Shown: positions 4,037-37,183 of the stretch, one piece after another | Numbering within the stretch: the stretch's first letter is position 1 | How the letters are laid out: each line of letters starts with the position of its first letter | Origin: an uncultured Alphaproteobacteria bacterium | GTDB taxonomy: Bacteria; Pseudomonadota; Alphaproteobacteria; RF32; CAG-239 | Assembly: GCA_944390905.1 (NCBI GenBank) | Contig: CALXRR010000015.1 | Span: 1 to 37,183 of the forward strand | Length of the DNA stretch: 37,183 bases | Reading direction: 5' to 3' | Notes under the pieces: model-generated | Told to the model about the DNA's origin: nothing | Databases searched by the model: none | Seen by the model: only the letters and a program-made list of their open reading frames with translations | Translations under genes and position numbers: made by a program

Positions 4037-4205
4037 TTAGTTACTCTACAAGTTTTGGTGTATAAAAATAAGTCTATAGCTGTAAAGTTTAAAATACATA
4101 ATATGCTTTATCTTGCAAATAAAAAGTAATGTTTTTGAACAAGATAAGGTTGAAAATTGAGGAAATAGGAATAAAATCAGGTGATGAATGTATGAGTGAA
4201 GATAA

Positions 4206-4238
4206 AAAAGAAACGCTCTTATAAAGAGCGTTTCTTTG
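4206..4238 (-). terminator. intrinsic terminator of accBC
   Basis: AAGAAACGCTCTT pairs with AAGAGCGTTTCTT around the loop ATAA. Read on the minus strand, T6 follows the stem. It starts a few bases after the accC stop codon. Confidence 0.88.
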
Positions 4239-4242
4239 ATGG

Positions 4243-5592
4243 TTATTTGTTTTTCTTGCGGTTTTCCATGTAGTGTTCAAGCCAATGGATGTTGTACTGT
4301 CCGTCAATGAACTCTGCCTGTGAAATAATCTCTTGATGCAGAGGAATGGTGGTTTGTACGCCTTCTATTACAAATTCTTCCAAGGCACGGCGCAAGCGCA
4401 TTAACGCAGCGTTGCGGGTTTTGCCGTGGACGATGAGCTTGGCTATCATACTATCATAAAAAGGTGGAATGCTGTAACCGGAGTAAATCTCTGAGTCTAC
4501 TCTGACACCCAGACCGCCTGGGGCATGCCATTCGGTAATCTTGCCGGGGCAGGGGGTGAAAGTTTCAGGATTTTCGGCATTAATACGGCATTCAATTGCG
4601 TGTCCGCTGAAGGTGATATCGTCTTGGGTGTAGCCCAATTCGGCACCGCTGGCTATACGAATCTGTTCACGGACGATATCAATGCCGCTGACGGCTTCGG
4701 TAATCGGGTGTTCAACTTGAAGGCGGGTGTTCATTTCCAAAAAGTAGAATTTGCCGTCTTCATATAAAAACTCAAGCGTTCCGGCGTTGGTATAGCCGAT
4801 TTCTTCAATTGCCTTGCGGACAATGTCGCCGATTTCTTTGCGCTGTTGCTGGTTGAGTGCCGGTGATGGGCATTCCTCAATAACCTTTTGGTTCTTGCGC
4901 TGAATCGAGCAGTCGCGTTCGCCTAAGTGGACAACGTGGCCGTATTTGTCTGCTAAAATCTGCATCTCAATATGGCGTGGTTTTTGCAGATATTTTTCCA
5001 TATAGACCACGTCGCTGGTGAAGGCTGCTTTGGCTTCGGCTTTAGCCATGGTGAAAGCTTCACGCATTTCTTCATCATTAAAGGCGATTTTCATGCCTTT
5101 ACCGCCGCCGCCGGCTGTGGCCTTGACTATTACAGGATAGCCGATTTTGTTGGCCCATTCAATAGCGTGGTCAACGCTCTCTAATGCAGGAGAGCCAGGG
5201 GTGACCGGAAGACCGGCTTTGATTGCGGCCTGACGAGCGGTAATTTTGTCACCCATAAGGCGCATTTGAGCTGCGGTCGGACCGATGAAGGTGATGCCAT
5301 GGGCTTCAACCATTTCAGCGAAGTCTGCATTCTCGGATAAAAAACCGAATCCGGGGTGAATAGCGTCTGCTCCGGTAATCAGCGCGGCTGAAATAATGGC
5401 TGACATATTTAAATACGAATCGCTAGAGCGAGCCGGACCGATGCAAACAGCTTCATCGGCCAGACGAACGTGCATGGCGTTGGCGTCGGCTTCTGAATGA
5501 ACGGCTACCGTGCGGATGCCCATTTCGCGGCAGGCGCGGTGGATACGCAGGGCGACTTCTCCTCGGTTGGCTATAAGTACTTTTTCAAACAT
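4243..5592 (-). CDS. accC: biotin carboxylase, acetyl-CoA carboxylase subunit
   Basis: 449 residues from the ATG at 5592, the same length as E. coli AccC. It carries out ATP-dependent carboxylation of biotin on AccB, the first half-reaction of acetyl-CoA carboxylase in fatty-acid synthesis. Visible marks are the N-terminal FEKVLIANRGEVALRI, the glycine-rich ATP lid KATAGGGGKGMK (about 160-171), the active-site stretch EMNTRLQVEHPITEAVSG (about 287-304) and SKMIAKLI-type residues (DSMIAKLIVHG) near the C-terminal domain. A longer frame begins at 5643 but would overlap accB by 29 nt and adds 17 residues absent from the family, so 5592 is chosen; GGGAT lies upstream of it. It follows accB with a 22-nt gap, so accBC is one operon. 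Confidence 0.97.
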   Translation of the reverse strand: MFEKVLIANRGEVALRIHRACREMGIRTVAVHSEADANAMHVRLADEAVCIGPARSSDSYLNMSAIISAALITGADAIHPGFGFLSENADFAEMVEAHGITFIGPTAAQMRLMGDKITARQAAIKAGLPVTPGSPALESVDHAIEWANKIGYPVIVKATAGGGGKGMKIAFNDEEMREAFTMAKAEAKAAFTSDVVYMEKYLQKPRHIEMQILADKYGHVVHLGERDCSIQRKNQKVIEECPSPALNQQQRKEIGDIVRKAIEEIGYTNAGTLEFLYEDGKFYFLEMNTRLQVEHPITEAVSGIDIVREQIRIASGAELGYTQDDITFSGHAIECRINAENPETFTPCPGKITEWHAPGGLGVRVDSEIYSGYSIPPFYDSMIAKLIVHGKTRNAALMRLRRALEEFVIEGVQTTIPLHQEIISQAEFIDGQYNIHWLEHYMENRKKNK

Positions 5593-5614
5593 GTATTTAT
5601 CCCGAAGTTTGTGT

Positions 5615-6100
5615 TTATTCGATAACAACCAACGGTTCACCATATTCTACAGGATCACCGCTCTCTACCAGAATTTTGCTGACTTTGCCGCCTTTGTGGG
5701 CTTTGACCGGATTGTAGGTCTTCATGGCTTCTATCAAGCAAACTGTATCGCCTTCGGCAACGGTGTCACCGACTTTGACGTAATTCGGGCTGTTGGGATC
5801 GCTGGAAAGATATACTACGCCCACCATCGGAGATTTTACGCTGCCGGGGTGCTTGCTGTAATCAACTTCAGCCGGGGCTGTGCTGGCTGCGGCGGTAGGC
5901 GCTGCAGGTGCAGGAGCTGCTAAAGGAGCAGGCATCGGAGCTGGAGCTGCGACCGGCATCGGCGGAACAGGTGCCGGATGCGGATGGCGAGACAAGCTGA
6001 TGCGACAGCTTTCGTCTTCATATTCCAGTTCGGTAAGGCTGCTGTTATCAAGAATTTCAGCCAGTTTGCTAATAATCTTTGTATCCAATGGAGTTGACAT
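5615..6100 (-). CDS. accB: biotin carboxyl carrier protein of acetyl-CoA carboxylase
   Basis: 161 residues. The C-terminal biotinyl domain (about 85-161) contains EAMK with the biotin-accepting lysine at residue 127, set in CLIEAMKTYNPVKAHKGG. This departs slightly from the common EAMKMMNEI form, with T-Y in place of the usual M-M or L-M. Residues ~38-75 form the flexible Pro/Ala linker typical of BCCPs, made here of repeated APAP/APAAPT stretches. It is the first gene of accBC. The carboxyltransferase genes accA and accD are not in this window. Confidence 0.96.
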   Translation of the reverse strand: MSTPLDTKIISKLAEILDNSSLTELEYEDESCRISLSRHPHPAPVPPMPVAAPAPMPAPLAAPAPAAPTAAASTAPAEVDYSKHPGSVKSPMVGVVYLSSDPNSPNYVKVGDTVAEGDTVCLIEAMKTYNPVKAHKGGKVSKILVESGDPVEYGEPLVVIE

Positions 6101-6290
6101 ATTTATTCTCTCTTACTTATTATTTAAACAAATTCTTCTTTATTCATATCTTGATTTTAAGTGAAAAACAACAAGAATCTTTATATTAGTGCTGAATTTG
6201 TGTGGAAAGCCCGAAAATTAAGGTGTTTTAAGTATATGTTTACAACTTTTCTGTTATGTTGTGTTAGGCAAAATTGATGGAGATTGAGTG

Positions 6291-6725
6291 ATGAGTGATT
6301 ATTTGTGGTTGGGCTATGCTTTATTGTCGGCTTTGATGGCGGCTCTGGTCAGTGTGTTTGGAAAAATTGGCTTGCAGGGGCTGGATGCTAATACGGCAAC
6401 GGCTATTCGCGCCGTGATTATGGCTTTGTTTTTGGTGGCGGTGTTGCTGGTGCAGCGAAATGTGGGGCATGTATCGGAGATTTTGAGCAATTCTAAGGCG
6501 ATGTTATTTATTGTATTGAGTGGGGTGGCCGGTGCGTTGTCTTGGTTGTTTTATTTTGTGGCGCTTAAATATGGTAAAGTGGCGCAGGTGACATCAGTGG
6601 ATAAGTTTAGCGTGGTGTTGGCGGCAATTATTGCCGTAGTGTTCTTGGGTGAGGCTTTGTCTTGGGTGTCGGCGGCAGGGGTTGGTTTGATTACCGCCGG
6701 AATTATTTTGGTCGCCTTGGGATAA
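6291..6725 (+). CDS. small EamA/DMT-family membrane protein
   Basis: 144 residues from ATG 6291 (GGAG at 6279-6282, 8-nt spacing); a GTG one codon earlier is less likely. It has about five hydrophobic segments and one EamA repeat: a start of the type YALLSALMAALVSVFGKIG, a central FYFVALKYGKVAQVTSVDKF and an end FLGEALSWVSAAGVGLITAG. Single-repeat members of the drug/metabolite transporter superfamily work as dimers, and the substrate cannot be read from sequence. The stop codon lies against the sigma-54 promoter of the next gene, so the two are probably transcribed separately. Confidence 0.85.
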   Translation: MSDYLWLGYALLSALMAALVSVFGKIGLQGLDANTATAIRAVIMALFLVAVLLVQRNVGHVSEILSNSKAMLFIVLSGVAGALSWLFYFVALKYGKVAQVTSVDKFSVVLAAIIAVVFLGEALSWVSAAGVGLITAGIILVALG

Positions 6726-6781: not shown

Positions 6782-8002
6782 ATGGCTTTAGGTATATTTT
6801 TTGCTCCGGTCTCCGGTATGAATGCACAGAGCAATGCTTTGAGTGCCGTCAGTGATAATATTGCCAATATCAATACCGTAGGCTATAAATCTGCCAGTAC
6901 TTTGTTCTATACCATGCTGGGGTCTCAACCGGCGGCGTCAGGCATTAGTGATGAAATCTCGACCTCAAAGGTGGATACTTTCGGGGTGGGGTCTTATACT
7001 CGTTATTCGATTTTGGATCAAGGTGTGGTGACTTCTACCGGAAATGCTTTTGATGTGGCGCTTAATCAGGAAAATGCATTCTTTGCCGTGAATGACGGTT
7101 ATGGCAATATATATTATACTCGTGCCGGTAAGTTTTCTCAGCGTGCCGAAGGCGGAGTAAATTATTTGATTAATAACAGCGGTTATTATGTACAGGGATT
7201 TAAGGCTAACGGAGACGGTACTTTTGCCGCTACAACATCAGATGTGGTGATTGATCCGGTTAGTAAAATGCCGGCAGTGCCGACCACGGATATGGAAATT
7301 ATTGCCAACGTGCCGGCAAGCGATGTTGATTCCGCTGCTTATGGATTGACCGTATATGGGCCTGAAAACGGCGGTGAAAATATGAATATGGTCTTTACTA
7401 AAGTTGAGGGAAAGCTCAATACTTGGAGTGTTGATTTTGTGGCTGAAAACGGTACTGTGACCGGAGGCCCGATTGAGGTGCAGTTTTCAAGCGACGGAAA
7501 GCTAGTCTCGCCGCAAAGTATTAATATTACTACCAACTGGAATGACGGAACTTCTAATAATATTACCATTCATATTGATAAAATGACCCAATATGCGGGA
7601 TCTGATGTGGAGACGCGTATATCTCAAGATGGGGTTGAGAGCGGTGATTATCTTGGGAGTTATATTGACCGTGATGGCGTGTTGCGTGCCAAATATACTA
7701 ATGACAAGACTTTGGATATTGCTAAGTTGGCGGTAGTGGGTTTTCAGGCTCCGGAGAATTTAATTCCGGTCAGCGGGACGATGTTTGAGGCAACCAGTGA
7801 TGTCGGCGGGAGTTTTTATGTGATTGGTTCTGATACTGAAAATTTGAATGTTTTGGTGCCAGAATCGGTGGAAGCTTCAAATGTGAGAGTGGAAGAAGAA
7901 TTTGCCGAGATGATTCAAGTGCAGCGTGCTTATAATCTGAACTCTAATGCTTTTACCGTGATTAATGAAATGACATCAACCGCAATTGATTTGAAGTCGT
8001 AG
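6782..8002 (+). CDS. flgE: flagellar hook protein
   Basis: 406 residues from ATG 6782, with GAGGTG 5-10 nt upstream; TTG at 6770 is an in-frame alternative. The N-terminus SAVSDNIANINTVGYKSAS is the rod/hook signature shared by FlgE/F/G. The C-terminus (EEFAEMIQVQRAYNLNSNAF, then INEMTSTAIDLK) is the matching coiled-coil end. The length and the large middle domain fit FlgE better than FlgF or FlgG. The protein polymerises into the hook, the universal joint of the flagellum. No other flagellar gene lies in the window, so this is a detached hook gene with its own promoter. The 3' flank carries a copy of a palindromic GGGAGAGGAATATA repeat. Confidence 0.9.
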   Translation: MALGIFFAPVSGMNAQSNALSAVSDNIANINTVGYKSASTLFYTMLGSQPAASGISDEISTSKVDTFGVGSYTRYSILDQGVVTSTGNAFDVALNQENAFFAVNDGYGNIYYTRAGKFSQRAEGGVNYLINNSGYYVQGFKANGDGTFAATTSDVVIDPVSKMPAVPTTDMEIIANVPASDVDSAAYGLTVYGPENGGENMNMVFTKVEGKLNTWSVDFVAENGTVTGGPIEVQFSSDGKLVSPQSINITTNWNDGTSNNITIHIDKMTQYAGSDVETRISQDGVESGDYLGSYIDRDGVLRAKYTNDKTLDIAKLAVVGFQAPENLIPVSGTMFEATSDVGGSFYVIGSDTENLNVLVPESVEASNVRVEEEFAEMIQVQRAYNLNSNAFTVINEMTSTAIDLKS

Positions 8003-12767: not shown

Positions 12768-12851
12768 CTGTTGGAAGCGGGTGCCGCTTCACCCACTAGG
12801 TTAGCGGTTGATGGATAGGGGCATAGGGCGAACTGCGTTCGCATAGTGCCG
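12738..12851. repeat. mosaic palindromic repeat overlapping ettA 3' end
   Basis: It begins with CCACGGTGCCCGTGG (12740-12754) and continues AGCCCTAGGTTAGCTG, GGAAGCGGGTGCCGCTTCACCC, GGATAGGGGCA and GCGAACTGCGTTCGC. The same blocks recur in other orders at 14541-14985, 19068-19223, 21444-21533 and 33776-33950. Confidence 0.8.
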
Positions 12852-12921: not shown

Positions 12922-13857
12922 CTAGAAAGCCATGACCGGACGAACGGAGAGGGTGCTGGAGTAGTTGCCCTTACTGCCGTAGTTCATATTGAACGAACCA
13001 CTCGTACTGGCGTTGAAGTACCACGCGCGGGTGGTGAAGGAGTACTCAGACGATGACCAAACGCTCTCATATCCACTGGATACATTTCCTAGGATTGTAC
13101 CTCCGGCAATGGTAATACTGGCATTTACTTTGGTGAAATTGACGGAATTATTAAGGTTATTCAATAAGCCACCTGAAGGTAGGCACCAACTCTTTCCGCT
13201 TGGGGTGCCTGTTGGTTTATAATTCTTAGCTGCCCATGCTGCGGGGTAAGTTGAGCTATTACCTTGAGCGGTAATTTTATCCGTATTAGTACAACTGGCT
13301 TGTACATCAGTCGGAGTTGAGCCATAGTTAGTAAGTCCCGGAATATCCGTACCAGATTCATCCCATGCAATACCGGTCTTAACCGGCTTAACCGTCATAA
13401 TCCAGCCATTCTGGCTGGCGGATTTTTCGTAGATAACTACACCAAGCAGAGTTTTAGAGCTTAATCTATCTTGCGAGCAAGCGCCATCGCTGTAATACAA
13501 TGCACCGATGACGCAGTCTGAATAATCAGGTTCACTACTCTTACAAGTACCGTTTTGCCAAACATACCCGTCAGCGCAAGAGCAGTAATTATATTTGCCA
13601 TTGCAGGCTTGGCTGGCGCCGCCGGTTTGGTTGGTGCCGGTGCAGGAGAGGGTGAAACCAAGGTCATTACATATTTCCGACTCGGATTTGAAGCAAGCCC
13701 ATTTGTTGCCGAAGGGGCATTTGACACCAGAGCCGCCGGAGCAAGAGGTTTCGGTATAGCCCAGTGTGGCGCAATCCTGCGTGGCGACGCATTGAGCGTT
13801 AATAGTTTGAGGGATTAAGGACAGACTTGTCCCTATTAACAAAAAGCGTATTTTCAT
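12922..13857 (-). CDS. gene A: secreted Cys-rich protein with C-type-lectin-like variable domain
   Basis: 311 residues from ATG 13857. An upstream in-frame extension to 13962 would run through the structured leader and is not used. Residues 1-21 (MKIRFLLIGTSLSLIPQTINA) are a Sec signal peptide. Residues ~22-125 are Cys-rich, with the unit CNGKYNYCSCADGYVWQNGTC. Residues ~130-311 form a DUF1566/FISUMP-like domain with GVVIYEKS, SWCLPSGGLL, VWSSSEYS and a terminal VRPVMAF. Genes B and C are paralogues. The last ~45 codons before VRPV differ from gene B almost only at codon positions 1 and 2, with third base C or T, which is typical of a DGR target. The likely role is a surface or secreted binding protein with a variable ligand face (inference). 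Confidence 0.88.
   Translation of the reverse strand: MKIRFLLIGTSLSLIPQTINAQCVATQDCATLGYTETSCSGGSGVKCPFGNKWACFKSESEICNDLGFTLSCTGTNQTGGASQACNGKYNYCSCADGYVWQNGTCKSSEPDYSDCVIGALYYSDGACSQDRLSSKTLLGVVIYEKSASQNGWIMTVKPVKTGIAWDESGTDIPGLTNYGSTPTDVQASCTNTDKITAQGNSSTYPAAWAAKNYKPTGTPSGKSWCLPSGGLLNNLNNSVNFTKVNASITIAGGTILGNVSSGYESVWSSSEYSFTTRAWYFNASTSGSFNMNYGSKGNYSSTLSVRPVMAF
12946..13077 (-). other. candidate DGR variable region, gene A
   Basis: The segment lies between the invariant blocks GGATAT and GTTCGTCCG. Compared with gene B, the differing codons are of the form NNC or NNT (TTC, ACC, ACC, CGC, TAC, AAC, AGT, AAT, GGC and so on). The anchors TGG TCR TCG TCT GAG TAC TCC and ACG AGT GGT TCG TTC are unchanged. 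Most differences can be derived from a template with AAC or AAT codons by changing adenines. Confidence 0.75.
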
Positions 13858-14042
13858 AACAAAAGCTCCATTGTTTTTATAGTTAAACAAACTCGCCAGA
13901 GTCATGAAAACTAAGGCGAGCGGAGCTGAAAAACTGTAAGAGTAACAGTCGCTGTTATTCAATATATTACCAGCACTCCGCCACTAGGCGGATATTTCAC
14001 TCTTAGGTGTTTTTCAGACACCGCGGTCGGCTCGTCCGACTG
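13858..14042 (-). ncRNA. structured 5' leader of gene A, candidate novel regulatory RNA
   Basis: Plus-strand coordinates of the arms: CTCGCC 13892-13897 with GGCGAG 13915-13920; CTGAAAAAC 13926-13934 with GTTTTTCAG 14009-14017; TAAGAGT 13937-13943 with ACTCTTA 13999-14005; CCGCC 13978-13982 with GGCGG 13987-13991; GTCGG 14026-14030 with CCGAC 14036-14040. A hairpin GGTGT/ACACC (14006-14022) would compete with the 9-bp helix, which allows two mutually exclusive folds. Loop and core 13944-13977 is almost identical in gene B's leader, while the helices change with compensation. It ends in ATGGAGC near the start codon. Confidence 0.72.
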
Positions 14043-14540: not shown

Positions 14541-14935
14541 GCGGGGAGCCCCCGCGGGCATTAGTCACCGGTAGCTTGTGCGGTGCCACAAAAGGCGCGA
14601 TGCTTGGGTTGTGCCGGTGTTGAGTTCTTGGCACTGGATCCCCGGGTCAAGCCCGAGGATGACAGTGCCGGTAGTGGGATAAAAACCTAGAAAGCTAGTA
14701 CCGGCCGGAAGCGGGTGCCGCCACGGTGCCCGTGGAGGCGGGGAGCCCCCGCGGGCATTAGTTAGCGGTGGCTTGTTACGTGCCAAAGGAGGCGCGATGC
14801 TTGGATTGTGCAGGAGTTGAGTTCTTGGCACTGGATCCCCGGGACAAGCCCGAGGATGACAGTGCCGGTAGTGGGATAAAAACCTAGAAAGCGAGCACCG
14901 GCCGGAAGCGGGTGCCGCTTCATCCACTAACTTTG
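14541..14935. repeat. 197-bp tandem duplication with two truncated gene-A-type 3' ends
   Basis: Two units start at GCGGGGAGCCCCCGCGGGCATTAG (14541 and 14738), 197 bp apart. Each holds GGCGCGATGCTTGG, a GLDPGI palindrome (14632-14667 and 14829-14864), GGGATAAAAACC and then CTAGAAAGC. On the minus strand the last piece reads R-P-V-L-A-F-stop (14687-14707 and 14884-14905), i.e. the last seven codons of the A/B/C gene family with the rest lost. Minus-strand open frames here are translated repeats, not genes. Confidence 0.8.
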
Positions 14936-19067: not shown

Positions 19068-19278
19068 TGGAAGCGGGTGCCGCTTCACCCACTAGGTTAG
19101 CGGTAGCTTGTTTAGTGTTTTAATTAATCGCGACCACGATGCTCGTGGTGCCCTAGGTTAGCTGTTGAGGGATAGGGGCAGGGGAGGCGCGATGCTCGCA
19201 TGGTGTCGGTGTTGAGTTCTTGGCACGGGATCCCCGGGTCAAGCCCGAGGATGACAGTGCCGGTAGATGGATAAAAAC
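19068..19278. repeat. mosaic repeat and GLDPGI palindrome upstream of gene B's 3' end
   Basis: Blocks GGAAGCGGGTGCCGCTTCACCC, CTAGGTTAGCGGTAGCTTG, CGACCACGATGCTCGTGGTGCCCTAGGTTAGCTG, GGATAGGGGCAGGGGAGGCGCGATGCTCGC and the palindrome 19224-19259, then GGATAAAAACCTA, which contains gene B's stop. It has the same order as beside gene A. 18970-19067 shows nothing I can identify. Confidence 0.82.
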
Positions 19279-20226
19279 CTAAAAAGCGAGCACCGGGCGA
19301 ACAACGTGGTTACTGGGGTCGTAGTTCTTATAGTTGTAGTTCATATAGAACGAACCACTCGTATTGGCGCCGAAGTTCCACGCGTAGCTGCGGGAGTACT
19401 CAGACGACGACCAAACGAGCCTATATCCACCGGATACATTTCCTAGGATTGTTGCTGCACTCGTACCCGCAGAAGCTTGGATTTTGTATACGGCAGCATT
19501 GAATTTAGTAAAGTTAGCTGAATTATCTAAGGCATTTCTTAATAATCCGCCTGAAGGCAGGCACCATGTTTTACCTCCTTCTTTATAATTCTTAGCGGCC
19601 CATGCTGCAGGATATTTTGAGCTGTTACCTTGAGCGGTAATTTTATCCGTATTGGTACAGCTGGCTTGGATATCGGTTAATTTTGATTCTGATGTTATGT
19701 TAGTAAGCCCCGAAATGTCCACAAATTCCGTAGACCATTTAATATTGGTAGCTACCAGCTTATGCGTCATCACCCAACCATTCTGGCTGGCTGATTTTTC
19801 ATAGATGACAATACCAAGCAATTTCTTACTGGAAATATAGTCATTTGAACATGTCCCATCGCTATAATACAACGCGCCGATAACGCAGTTGGCAGTATTA
19901 GCCTCACATGATTTGGTATCCGCGTTCCATGTAAAATTCGCAGCACATTTACAGATATTGTATTTGCCGTTACAGGCTTTGCCGGTACCGCCGGTTTGAT
20001 TCGCATCTGTACAGGAAAGAGTGAAGCCATATTCATTGCAAAATTCCGAATCGGATTTGAAGCAGGCCCATTTGTTGCCGAAGGGGCATTTGACGCCTTT
20101 GCCTCCTGAACAGGAGGTTTCGGTATAACCTAAGGTGGCACAATCCTGGGTGGCAACGCACTGAGCATTTATGGTTTGGGGAATTAAGGACAGAGAAGTC
20201 CCTAGCAATAAAAAGCGTATTTTCAT
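19279..20226 (-). CDS. gene B: secreted Cys-rich protein with C-type-lectin-like variable domain
   Basis: 315 residues. The signal peptide (residues 1-21) is the same as gene A's except one residue. A Cys-rich region with CNGKYNICKCAANFTWNADTKSC follows, then the DUF1566/FISUMP-like domain with GIVIYEKSASQNGWVMT, TWCLPSGGLL, LVWSSSEYS and the end VVRPVLAF. Its 3' end differs from gene A in a way typical of DGR variable regions, while the neighbouring codons are almost unchanged. Promoter, leader and 3' palindrome are shared with gene A, so the whole ~1.3-kb unit was duplicated. It ends with TAG inside the repeat-associated CCTAAAAAGC. Confidence 0.88.
   Translation of the reverse strand: MKIRFLLLGTSLSLIPQTINAQCVATQDCATLGYTETSCSGGKGVKCPFGNKWACFKSDSEFCNEYGFTLSCTDANQTGGTGKACNGKYNICKCAANFTWNADTKSCEANTANCVIGALYYSDGTCSNDYISSKKLLGIVIYEKSASQNGWVMTHKLVATNIKWSTEFVDISGLTNITSESKLTDIQASCTNTDKITAQGNSSKYPAAWAAKNYKEGGKTWCLPSGGLLRNALDNSANFTKFNAAVYKIQASAGTSAATILGNVSGGYRLVWSSSEYSRSYAWNFGANTSGSFYMNYNYKNYDPSNHVVRPVLAF
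19303..19431 (-). other. candidate DGR variable region, gene B
   Basis: It aligns with 12946-13077 with a one-codon gap. Examples of A/B codon pairs: AGC/CTC, TAC/AAC, AAC/GGC, AAT/TAT, GGC/AAC (twice), AGT/TAT, TAC/GAC, ACC/AAC, CTC/CAC. Position 3 is kept in nearly all of them. Position-3-only changes are limited to TCA/TCG and AGC/AGT, and one codon (TCC/GTT) changes at all three positions. Confidence 0.75.
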
Positions 20227-21443: not shown

Positions 21444-21620
21444 CAGCTAACCTAGGGCTCCACGAGCATCGTGGCGCGACTTCTTTGTCGCTATCACTCA
21501 ACAGCTAAGTTAGGGGGTGAAGCTGGCACAGCTTCTCCGGCTTTGTCGGGGGCACAGGCTTGCAGCCTGTGGATGATGGTTATTGGGGTAAGATTGCCAA
21601 TTATAGCTAATTTTGTCTGG
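21444..21620. repeat. mosaic repeat joined to two-hairpin repeat copy 4
   Basis: 21444-21533 holds CAGCTAACCTAGGGCTCCACGAGCATCGTGG, GCGACTTCTTTGTCGC and GGGGGTGAAGCTGGCACAGCTT, blocks shared with ettA's tail and the last gene of the window. 21533-21620 is the two-hairpin repeat with CACAGGCttgcaGCCTGTG and TAATTTTGTCTGG. Confidence 0.75.
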
Positions 21621-33775: not shown

Positions 33776-33957
33776 AAACGGGCGCCGTTTGAGCGGAGAG
33801 CCTCCGCGGGCATCAGTCACCGGTAGCTTGTGTGGAGTTTTAACAAGTCGCGACCACGATGCTCGTGCAAGCTGTGCCAGCTTGACCCCCTAACCTAGCT
33901 GTGGCTTGCTCTGTGCCCAAGAAGGCGCGATGCTTGGATTGTGCCCCTTTCTCATTC
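33776..33957. repeat. mosaic palindromic repeats between rsfS and gene C
   Basis: AGCCTCCGCGGGCATCAGTCACCGGTAGCTTGTG, CGACCACGATGCTCGTGCAAGCTGTGCCAGCTTG, ACCTAGCTGTGGCTTG, GGCGCGATGCTTGG and CTAGAAAGC, in an order different from the other islands. The GLDPGI palindrome is missing here. Confidence 0.78.
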
Positions 33958-34929
33958 CTAGAAAGCGAGCACCGGTCGAACGGAAAATGAATATAAGGTA
34001 GAACCTTTATTGTATGTCTTCATTGATGATGATATTGAAGAATATGATGGAGTGCTAACTTCTAAATGCCAAGCATCATGAGAATCATAATCAGAAGACG
34101 ACCAAATCCACTCAATGGAAATATATTCGTTGGAATTGGCATCTCCAAGTTTAGTGCCTCCAGCTATACTAATACCGGTGTTGATTTTTGTTAAATTTGC
34201 GGAATTAGTTATATTATTTAATAATCCTCCTGATGGTAAACACCAGTTTTTTCCATTTGGAGTTCCTGTTGGTTTATAACTTTTTGCAGTCCATGCTGCC
34301 GGATATGTTGAGCTGTTACCGTATGCCGTAATAGCATCTGTGTTTATACAACTGGATTGTATATCGGTTAAACATGATATTGATGTACAATTAGTGATTT
34401 CTGGAATATCTTTTATATCTCCCCACGCAATAGCTGTCTGAATCGGTTTAACCGTCATAATCCACCCCATCTGGCTACCTGATTTTTCATAAATCACCAC
34501 ACCCAGTAGAGTTTTAGAGCTTTCAAGCTTATCGGAGCAGGTATTATCTGAATAAAATAAGGCTCCAATGGTACAGGCTGAATAATCAGGTTCACTACTC
34601 TTACAAGTGCCGTCTTTCCAAAGATATCCATCAGCGCAAGAGCAGTAATTATATTTTCCGTTGCAATCCTTACTACCGCCACCGGTTTGGTAGGTGTCGG
34701 TGCAGGTAAGGGTGAAACCGAGTTCTGTGCAGAGTTGGTCTTTGATTTCCGAATCGGATTTTAAGCAAGCCCACCAATTGCCAAATGGGCATTTGACACC
34801 ACTACCGCCGGAGCAGCTGGTTTCGGTATAGCCTAAAGTCGCGCAATCTTGAGTGGCGACACATTGGGCGTTAATAGTTTGGGGAATTAAGGACAGACTT
34901 GTCCCCAGCAATAAAAAGCGTATTTTCAT
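33958..34929 (-). CDS. gene C: secreted Cys-rich C-type-lectin-like protein, not visibly diversified
   Basis: 323 residues. The signal peptide is identical to gene B's. The Cys-rich part contains CNGKYNYCSCADGYLWKDGTC, very close to gene A. The C-terminal domain has NWCLPSGGLL, IEWIWSSSDY and the shared end SFSVRPVLAF. The segment before VRPV is AT-rich and rich in Ser (TCA/TCT codons) instead of the NNC/NNT codons of genes A and B, so it does not look like a current variable region. Only 14 nt before the ATG (CTTTTGTT-type) match A and B; the structured leader and the promoter are missing. It may be an older copy or a copy under different control. Confidence 0.85.
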   Translation of the reverse strand: MKIRFLLLGTSLSLIPQTINAQCVATQDCATLGYTETSCSGGSGVKCPFGNWWACLKSDSEIKDQLCTELGFTLTCTDTYQTGGGSKDCNGKYNYCSCADGYLWKDGTCKSSEPDYSACTIGALFYSDNTCSDKLESSKTLLGVVIYEKSGSQMGWIMTVKPIQTAIAWGDIKDIPEITNCTSISCLTDIQSSCINTDAITAYGNSSTYPAAWTAKSYKPTGTPNGKNWCLPSGGLLNNITNSANLTKINTGISIAGGTKLGDANSNEYISIEWIWSSSDYDSHDAWHLEVSTPSYSSISSSMKTYNKGSTLYSFSVRPVLAF

Positions 34930-36649: not shown

Positions 36650-36712
36650 CTCGCAATGACACTCACAACTACGGGGCAGAGAAGGCGTGATGCTTGGATT
36701 GTGCCGGTGGTG
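36650..36712. repeat. fragment of the mosaic repeat
   Basis: GGGCAGAGAAGGCGTGATGCTTGGATTGTGCCGG corresponds to the GGCGCGATGCTTGG-GTGCCGG block seen in the other islands. Confidence 0.6.
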
Positions 36713-36748
36713 GGTGTATAATATTTTACCGGTTTTGAAAAATTAGTA

Positions 36749-36777
36749 TTTACATCAATGAAAAATTGTGATAGTAT
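36749..36777 (+). promoter_or_regulatory. sigma-70 promoter of the last gene
   Basis: TTTACA (36749-36754), 17 nt, TAGTAT (36772-36777). GAGGAG (36802-36807) then serves as ribosome-binding site for ATG 36816. Confidence 0.75.
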
Positions 36778-36815
36778 GAGACTCGTAGGAAAGAGGTTTG
36801 CGAGGAGATATTATC

Positions 36816-37183
36816 ATGAAACGGCATGTTTACTTATTGATTTCCGTATCTTGTCTAAGCTTAGGTAGTGTTTTATCTGCCCAAGCCGGTATTCTCCCAT
36901 CAGAAACAGATTTATCTTCACACACACATAATACACACCTTGTTTCTCAAACCAAACTTCTTTCCTTATCTCAATTATCTGCACAATCGGAGCATCGCGA
37001 CTTCTCTGCCCCTATCTGGCAGCCGCTAACTGATGGGGTCAAGCTGGCACAGCTTGCATCGGTCTGTTTTATAACGGATGCGGGGAATTGTGGTGGTGCC
37101 GGTGGTGGGACGGATAGCAGTTCTTCCAGCGGTGCGGGGCCGATTGATCCTGATACTGATAATATGTGCAAACTGGAAGGTTA
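36816..37183 (+). CDS. secreted protein with repeat-derived segment, 3'-truncated by window edge
   Basis: 122 complete codons are visible; no stop before the window end. Residues 1-24 (MKRHVYLLISVSCLSLGSVL then SAQA) are a Sec signal peptide. A Ser/Thr/His-rich stretch follows. Residues ~59-82 (HRDFSAPIWQPLTDGVKLAQ region) are encoded by a copy of the dispersed mosaic repeat (36990-37061), read in frame. Then come Gly- and Ser-rich linkers and the first cysteines. It is probably another member of the large Cys-rich secreted protein class, comparable to the gene at the start of the window. GAGGAG lies 8 nt upstream of the ATG. Confidence 0.78.
   Translation, partial: MKRHVYLLISVSCLSLGSVLSAQAGILPSETDLSSHTHNTHLVSQTKLLSLSQLSAQSEHRDFSAPIWQPLTDGVKLAQLASVCFITDAGNCGGAGGGTDSSSSSGAGPIDPDTDNMCKLEG
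36990..37061. repeat. mosaic repeat copy inside coding sequence
   Basis: GAGCATCGCGACTTCTCTGC, CCCTATC, AGCCGCTAAC and GGGGTCAAGCTGGCACAGCTTGCA match, in the same order, blocks at 21454-21533 and the complement of 33851-33905. The copy keeps the frame open. Confidence 0.72.

Follow-up and report, generated by a model that had tools for sequence, protein, structure and literature searches.

Here we analysed a window of 37,183 nucleotides, which is contig C15 of the source genome G000, a 1.63-Mb metagenome assembly of an uncultured alphaproteobacterium in 74 contigs. The last gene of the window starts with an ATG at 36816, and its frame is open up to the contig end. It is truncated there, so only the 5′ part of a secreted, Cys-rich protein is present (36816..37181, + strand, from the ORF list). 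The protein begins with a probable Sec signal peptide, MKRHVYLLISVSCLSLGSVLSAQA (36816..36887, +), recognised by eye from its charged start, hydrophobic core, and AQA end. Further downstream lies the start of a conserved Cys-rich domain, ASVCFITDAGNCGGAGGG... (37056..37181, +), referred to here as the ASVC domain after its opening residues ASVCFITDAG. This domain has 27 matches in its own genome and many in genomes G009 and G010; overall it was found in 21 of the 56 genomes searched, with the best matches in the same genus.

Between the signal-peptide region and the ASVC domain, the linker holds a 77-bp copy of a dispersed repeat (36981..37057, +), identified by its match to the repeat consensus (90% over 77 bp, E 6.2e-24 in a search of its own genome) and by a reading-frame test. 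The copy is read on the + strand, in the opposite orientation to the consensus as constructed. Translated in the frame of the gene it reads AQSEHRDFSAPIWQPLTDGVKLAQL, followed by ASVCFITDAGNCGG. The repeat closes with a terminal hairpin, CAAGCTG-GCA-CAGCTTG (37040..37056, +); the last base of its 3′ arm is the first of the Ala codon that opens ASVCFITDAG. A partial copy upstream of the gene (36673..36704, −) lies in the opposite orientation to the linker copy, as an inverted pair.

The original prediction had assigned 72 bp of repeat similarity to 36990-37061. The similarity is real and covers 77 bp, but those bounds start 9 bp too late and end 4 bp inside the conserved domain. The estimate of ~24 residues added behind the signal peptide is close to the about 25 that we count, although these lie ~31 residues past the likely end of the signal peptide. 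The repeat was also said to stay open in the coding frame, as it does through to the contig end. Judged by the paralogue on contig C24, which is identical across repeat and junction and open for 650 aa, the frame is not broken beyond the window and the similarity survives paralogue alignment. Paralogues on other contigs have open frames of up to 659 aa, and those on C24, C26, and C3 carry a C-terminal variable-type domain. A Pfam search of four family or variable-type proteins found no domain.

Copies of the repeat outside the linker

The region 36700-37183 has 53 matches in its own genome, about 30 of them short copies of the repeat and the others paralogous genes. More than 50 non-coding repeat places occur in the sampled G000 loci, where 54 intergenic copies compare with five in ORFs of the family. 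The search for the repeat found it only in G000, G009, and G010, and weakly in G005. Within the window, an intergenic copy at 21469..21546 (+) is interrupted by a TAG in the reading frame of the window gene, and 14756..14813 (−) is an intergenic mosaic copy. Three more intergenic copies on the − strand lie 3′ of a variable-type domain: one at 33866..33944, 17 bp from the domain of gene 33958-34929(−); a core match at 19157..19205, 77 bp from that of gene 19279-20226(−); and a partial copy with the GGAAGCGG version of the hairpin at 12781..12826, 99 bp from that of gene 12922-13962(−). In each of these three genes the variable-type domain is C-terminal, with mosaic hairpin repeats directly after it. 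Another intergenic repeat, with the core GGCTAATTTTGTCT, has seven copies between 14141 and 21646. Of the 77-bp repeat, the terminal 17-nt hairpin alone gives a good fold; the window copy has a z-score of −0.27. The repeat as one whole palindrome was rejected, as there is no end-to-end pairing.

Rickettsia palindromic elements (RPEs) are short dispersed repeats with an open frame that are found between genes and also in frame inside protein genes (PMC2229807, PMC10969869). The 77-bp repeat is similar in that it is fused in frame in a protein gene and has intergenic copies elsewhere. This bears out the expectation of an RPE-like process in a different repeat family and lineage, with a mostly intergenic dispersed repeat read in frame within a gene. 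However, RPEs are 105-146 bp long (PMC2229807) and have long stem-loops, while the repeat here is 77 bp with a terminal hairpin only. RPEs also enter many unrelated genes, whereas in the sampled stretches this repeat was found in one family at one junction, where it is repeatedly renewed. The parallel thus applies to the manner of working and not to membership, since length, overall palindrome, and host-gene range differ; the repeat works like an RPE but is not itself one. Other MITE-like elements, ERIC/RU-1 and the 107-bp Correia element, have ORFs that fuse in frame with genes (PMC2229807). Compared by description, these elements differ in carrying terminal inverted repeats along with target-site duplications; we saw neither feature here. 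BIME/REP elements are mosaics of short palindromic blocks between genes. The 77-bp repeat is likewise a mosaic of intergenic palindromic blocks, but its blocks occur inside coding sequence too. The REP-associated Y1_Tnp (RAYT-type) transposase, PF01797, has no match in G000, which is about 90% complete, and this leaves RAYT-type transposition of the repeat unsupported.

In G000, the gene frame is uninterrupted in all five full linker copies, compared with one of 31 other copies; a sixth copy, counted as genic in one frame test, is probably upstream of a start codon. Copies outside the linker have a TAG in the gene frame, typically CTAACCTAG, where full linker copies read CTAACTGATG or CTGACTAATG. 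On contig C4, an intergenic copy 3′ of a variable-type gene also has the open allele. The coding frame is naturally open in the intergenic copies of G009 and G010 as well, so frame agreement alone is no proof of selection. Tested against simulated drift, the openness of these copies gave P values of 0.03 (G009) and 0.07 (G010), with three G010 copies counted as intergenic that sit in long ORFs and look genic. As this is little above simulated drift, we do not claim that selection keeps the intergenic copies open. Codon-position diversity did not separate genic from intergenic copies, which are too few for the comparison.

A search of other proteins, as the original prediction had proposed, recovered the repeat in further members of the ASVCFITDAG family but in no other ORFs of at least 150 aa in the sampled G000 loci (45,910 codons). 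Outside this family in the relatives, only 3′-end (C-terminal) overlaps with a few ORFs were seen among the sampled stretches and the matches listed. A UvrA-like ORF of G010, named from its sequence, has a C-terminal tail that runs into a repeat copy (L147, 357-458), and a 621-aa ORF of G009 (L152) ends in one. An apparent ORF of 286 aa on G009 C195 was set aside, as it is antisense to an oxidoreductase-like gene.

Contents and turnover of the linker

Among 66 members of the family sampled from five species, it is the linker that varies. The repeat occupies the same linker in the same frame and orientation in 28 of the 66, all from G000, G009, and G010 (one genus), and its copies are mostly flush with the ASVC domain. 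The insert first reported in the last gene is therefore present but not single, with the same linker filled repeatedly in three species. Comparison with insert-free relatives, the check proposed at the outset, can be made within G000, where paralogues on C8, C12, C34, C41, and C68 are without the insert and those on C3, C57, and C74 have a different linker. The window gene is 94% identical to the C74 paralogue upstream of the linker and 95% downstream, and 96% and 90% identical, respectively, to that on C3, yet the linkers differ in both cases. The linkers of C3 and C57 are filled by a second, unrelated repeat of about 42 bp, which has 15 further places in G000 outside the C3, C57, and C6 linkers. 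In G009 and G010, several linkers have matches elsewhere in the DNA of their own species, outside the family. In G010, the 77-bp repeat stands twice in tandem in the gene on C76 and once in that on C61; the DNA upstream of the two is 100% identical. Close paralogues have repeatedly gained, lost, or replaced the linker insert, and have also duplicated it in tandem.

No before/after pair with a target-site duplication was found among the sampled paralogues. Nor was a clean empty site found, and comparison of a filled with an unfilled paralogue (L111, L116) reveals no obvious duplication of a target site. Other sequences occur at the same site in two more genomes: the linker of G005 L139 has other repeat-like sequence with LLRGRE runs, and those of G006 L179 and L181 hold SSP[EK]VGEARRGV. 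These linkers suggest that the linker is a landing site beyond the range of the 77-bp repeat.

The main rival reading is a single ancestral insertion, followed by vertical inheritance and copying between paralogues, with the hairpin variants arising through exchange with intergenic copies. Consistent with this, the frame, orientation, and hairpin-flush 3′ junction are common to three species, and the repeat label is somewhat clustered on the domain tree (10 of 500 shuffles were as low). On the same tree, however, repeat presence needs 11 parsimony changes, of which at least five are forced by supported branches (as gains or losses). Unrelated repeats also occupy linkers, the same insert sits behind different N-terminal modules (C19 vs C24), and the tandem duplication looks recent. 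We consider one old insertion unlikely for these reasons, although with copying between paralogues it could account for part of the pattern, and we prefer a reading in which hairpin-ended blocks were captured repeatedly, by recombination, in a permissive linker.

The junction hairpin and the variable-type genes

Of 65 members, 28 have a perfect hairpin of 6-8 bp at the junction, compared with 1.4% of background windows; these members and the 28 repeat carriers are different sets, with most members common to both. In 23 of the 28 hairpin members, the hairpin ends exactly one base into the Ala codon. Four stems are found, each with its exact complement (CAAGCTG, CAAACGG, CGACCTG, and CCACCG). 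The hairpin may be kept for a job at the DNA level, as an exchange point where secreted proteins trade N-terminal modules and linkers with one another. That four different stems all form perfect hairpins in the same register would fit such a role, as would the near-identical domains behind different signal peptides in L109 and L110. Of 52 within-species pairs with similar downstream and dissimilar upstream sequence, 42 also lose their similarity no more than 6 nt from the junction, but since the junction is a chosen reference point and the domain is conserved, this break pattern alone indicates a module boundary rather than a mechanism. Against the role, the hairpin is missing in 37 of 65 members, selection for domain boundaries predicts the same breakpoints, and swapped whole repeat blocks would give the same stems without any function. 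An exchange point is thus a tentative and rather doubtful proposal.

Outside the linkers, 18 of the 40 copies compiled in G000 are found 3′ of a C-terminal variable-type domain, at a distance of up to 400 bp, against 0.3 expected, although the probability attached to this count is too small because duplication of genes with their flanks breaks the assumed independence of copies. All 18 are on the same strand as the variable-type gene. The genome also encodes a reverse transcriptase (RT), with a match above the Pfam cut-off, and an avd-like ORF recognised by eye. It has three template repeats; in most of their matches, the one in paralogue C3 among them, A is the base that changes most often. 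Read from sequence, the RT, avd-like ORF, and adenine-biased template repeats are those of a diversity-generating retroelement (DGR). At L142 (G000:C61), the DGR occupies 4047-6585 and 7468-7611, with the RT, the avd-like ORF, three similar template repeats, and a fourth match nearby. About 60 genes or fragments with a C-terminal variable-type domain are present in the 1.6-Mb genome, with adenine bias examined for some, and the variable-type genes are possibly an unusually large target set for the DGR. In phage DGRs of the BPP-1 kind, hairpins with 7-10 bp stems and 4-nt GRNA loops lie 4-34 bp from VR (PMC3240598). Like the Bordetella phage BPP-1 system, G000 has hairpins 3′ of variable-type genes, an RT, an avd-like ORF, and adenine-rich template repeats, but the hairpins in the linkers have 3-nt loops and lie in the 5′ part of the gene.

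The direction of flow could also be reversed, with intergenic copies being remnants of gene linkers that the duplication and decay of genes have scattered. The same-strand copies 3′ of related variable-type genes (18 of 40) could be read in this way, as could the intergenic copies of G009 and G010 that are open in the coding frame. However, the intergenic copies inspected have no ASVC-domain sequence after the hairpin, and the excess of intergenic over family-ORF copies in the sampled G000 loci (54 vs 5) makes this origin improbable. An assembly or binning artefact, in which repeats joined unrelated contigs within genes, is hardly credible: several family genes, including the window gene, do stop at contig ends, but the same pattern recurs in the separate assemblies G009 and G010, and inserts are contig-internal with frames open for hundreds of residues (C26 and C36; C9 and C8 in G010). 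Because several contigs break within the Cys-rich family, the assembly probably under-represents it. The window itself begins inside another gene of this family (1-912).

Probable capture of repeats as protein spacers

The 77-bp segment is best explained as a copy of a dispersed, mostly intergenic repeat that moved into the linker of a multicopy secreted family and would be translated there as a spacer, a reading to which we assign a probability of about 0.7. Entry would proceed by ectopic recombination or gene conversion with hairpin-ended repeat blocks, and the hairpin-ended repeats abundant 3′ of related variable-type genes may be their source. The linker likely accepts almost any residues, with selection mainly purging copies that bear stops or are out of frame. 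In the protein, the insert would separate the export signal from the domain by a variable spacer.

To our knowledge, most cases of dispersed repeats captured in frame come from Rickettsia and a few MITEs, largely as scattered events in unrelated genes. Here, dispersed repeats arrive at one spot of one family, where junk-like DNA would repeatedly become new protein spacers. As one linker has been occupied again and again in three species, its empty, occupied, and duplicated states can be set side by side, which makes it testable whether such insertions are noise that the protein tolerates or raw material for new protein parts. The repeat-filled linker also adjoins a retroelement system that appears to diversify the other end of related proteins. 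If the junction hairpin does act as an exchange point, the exchange junction and the DGR-hypermutated C-terminal domain would be two layers of diversification in one protein family.
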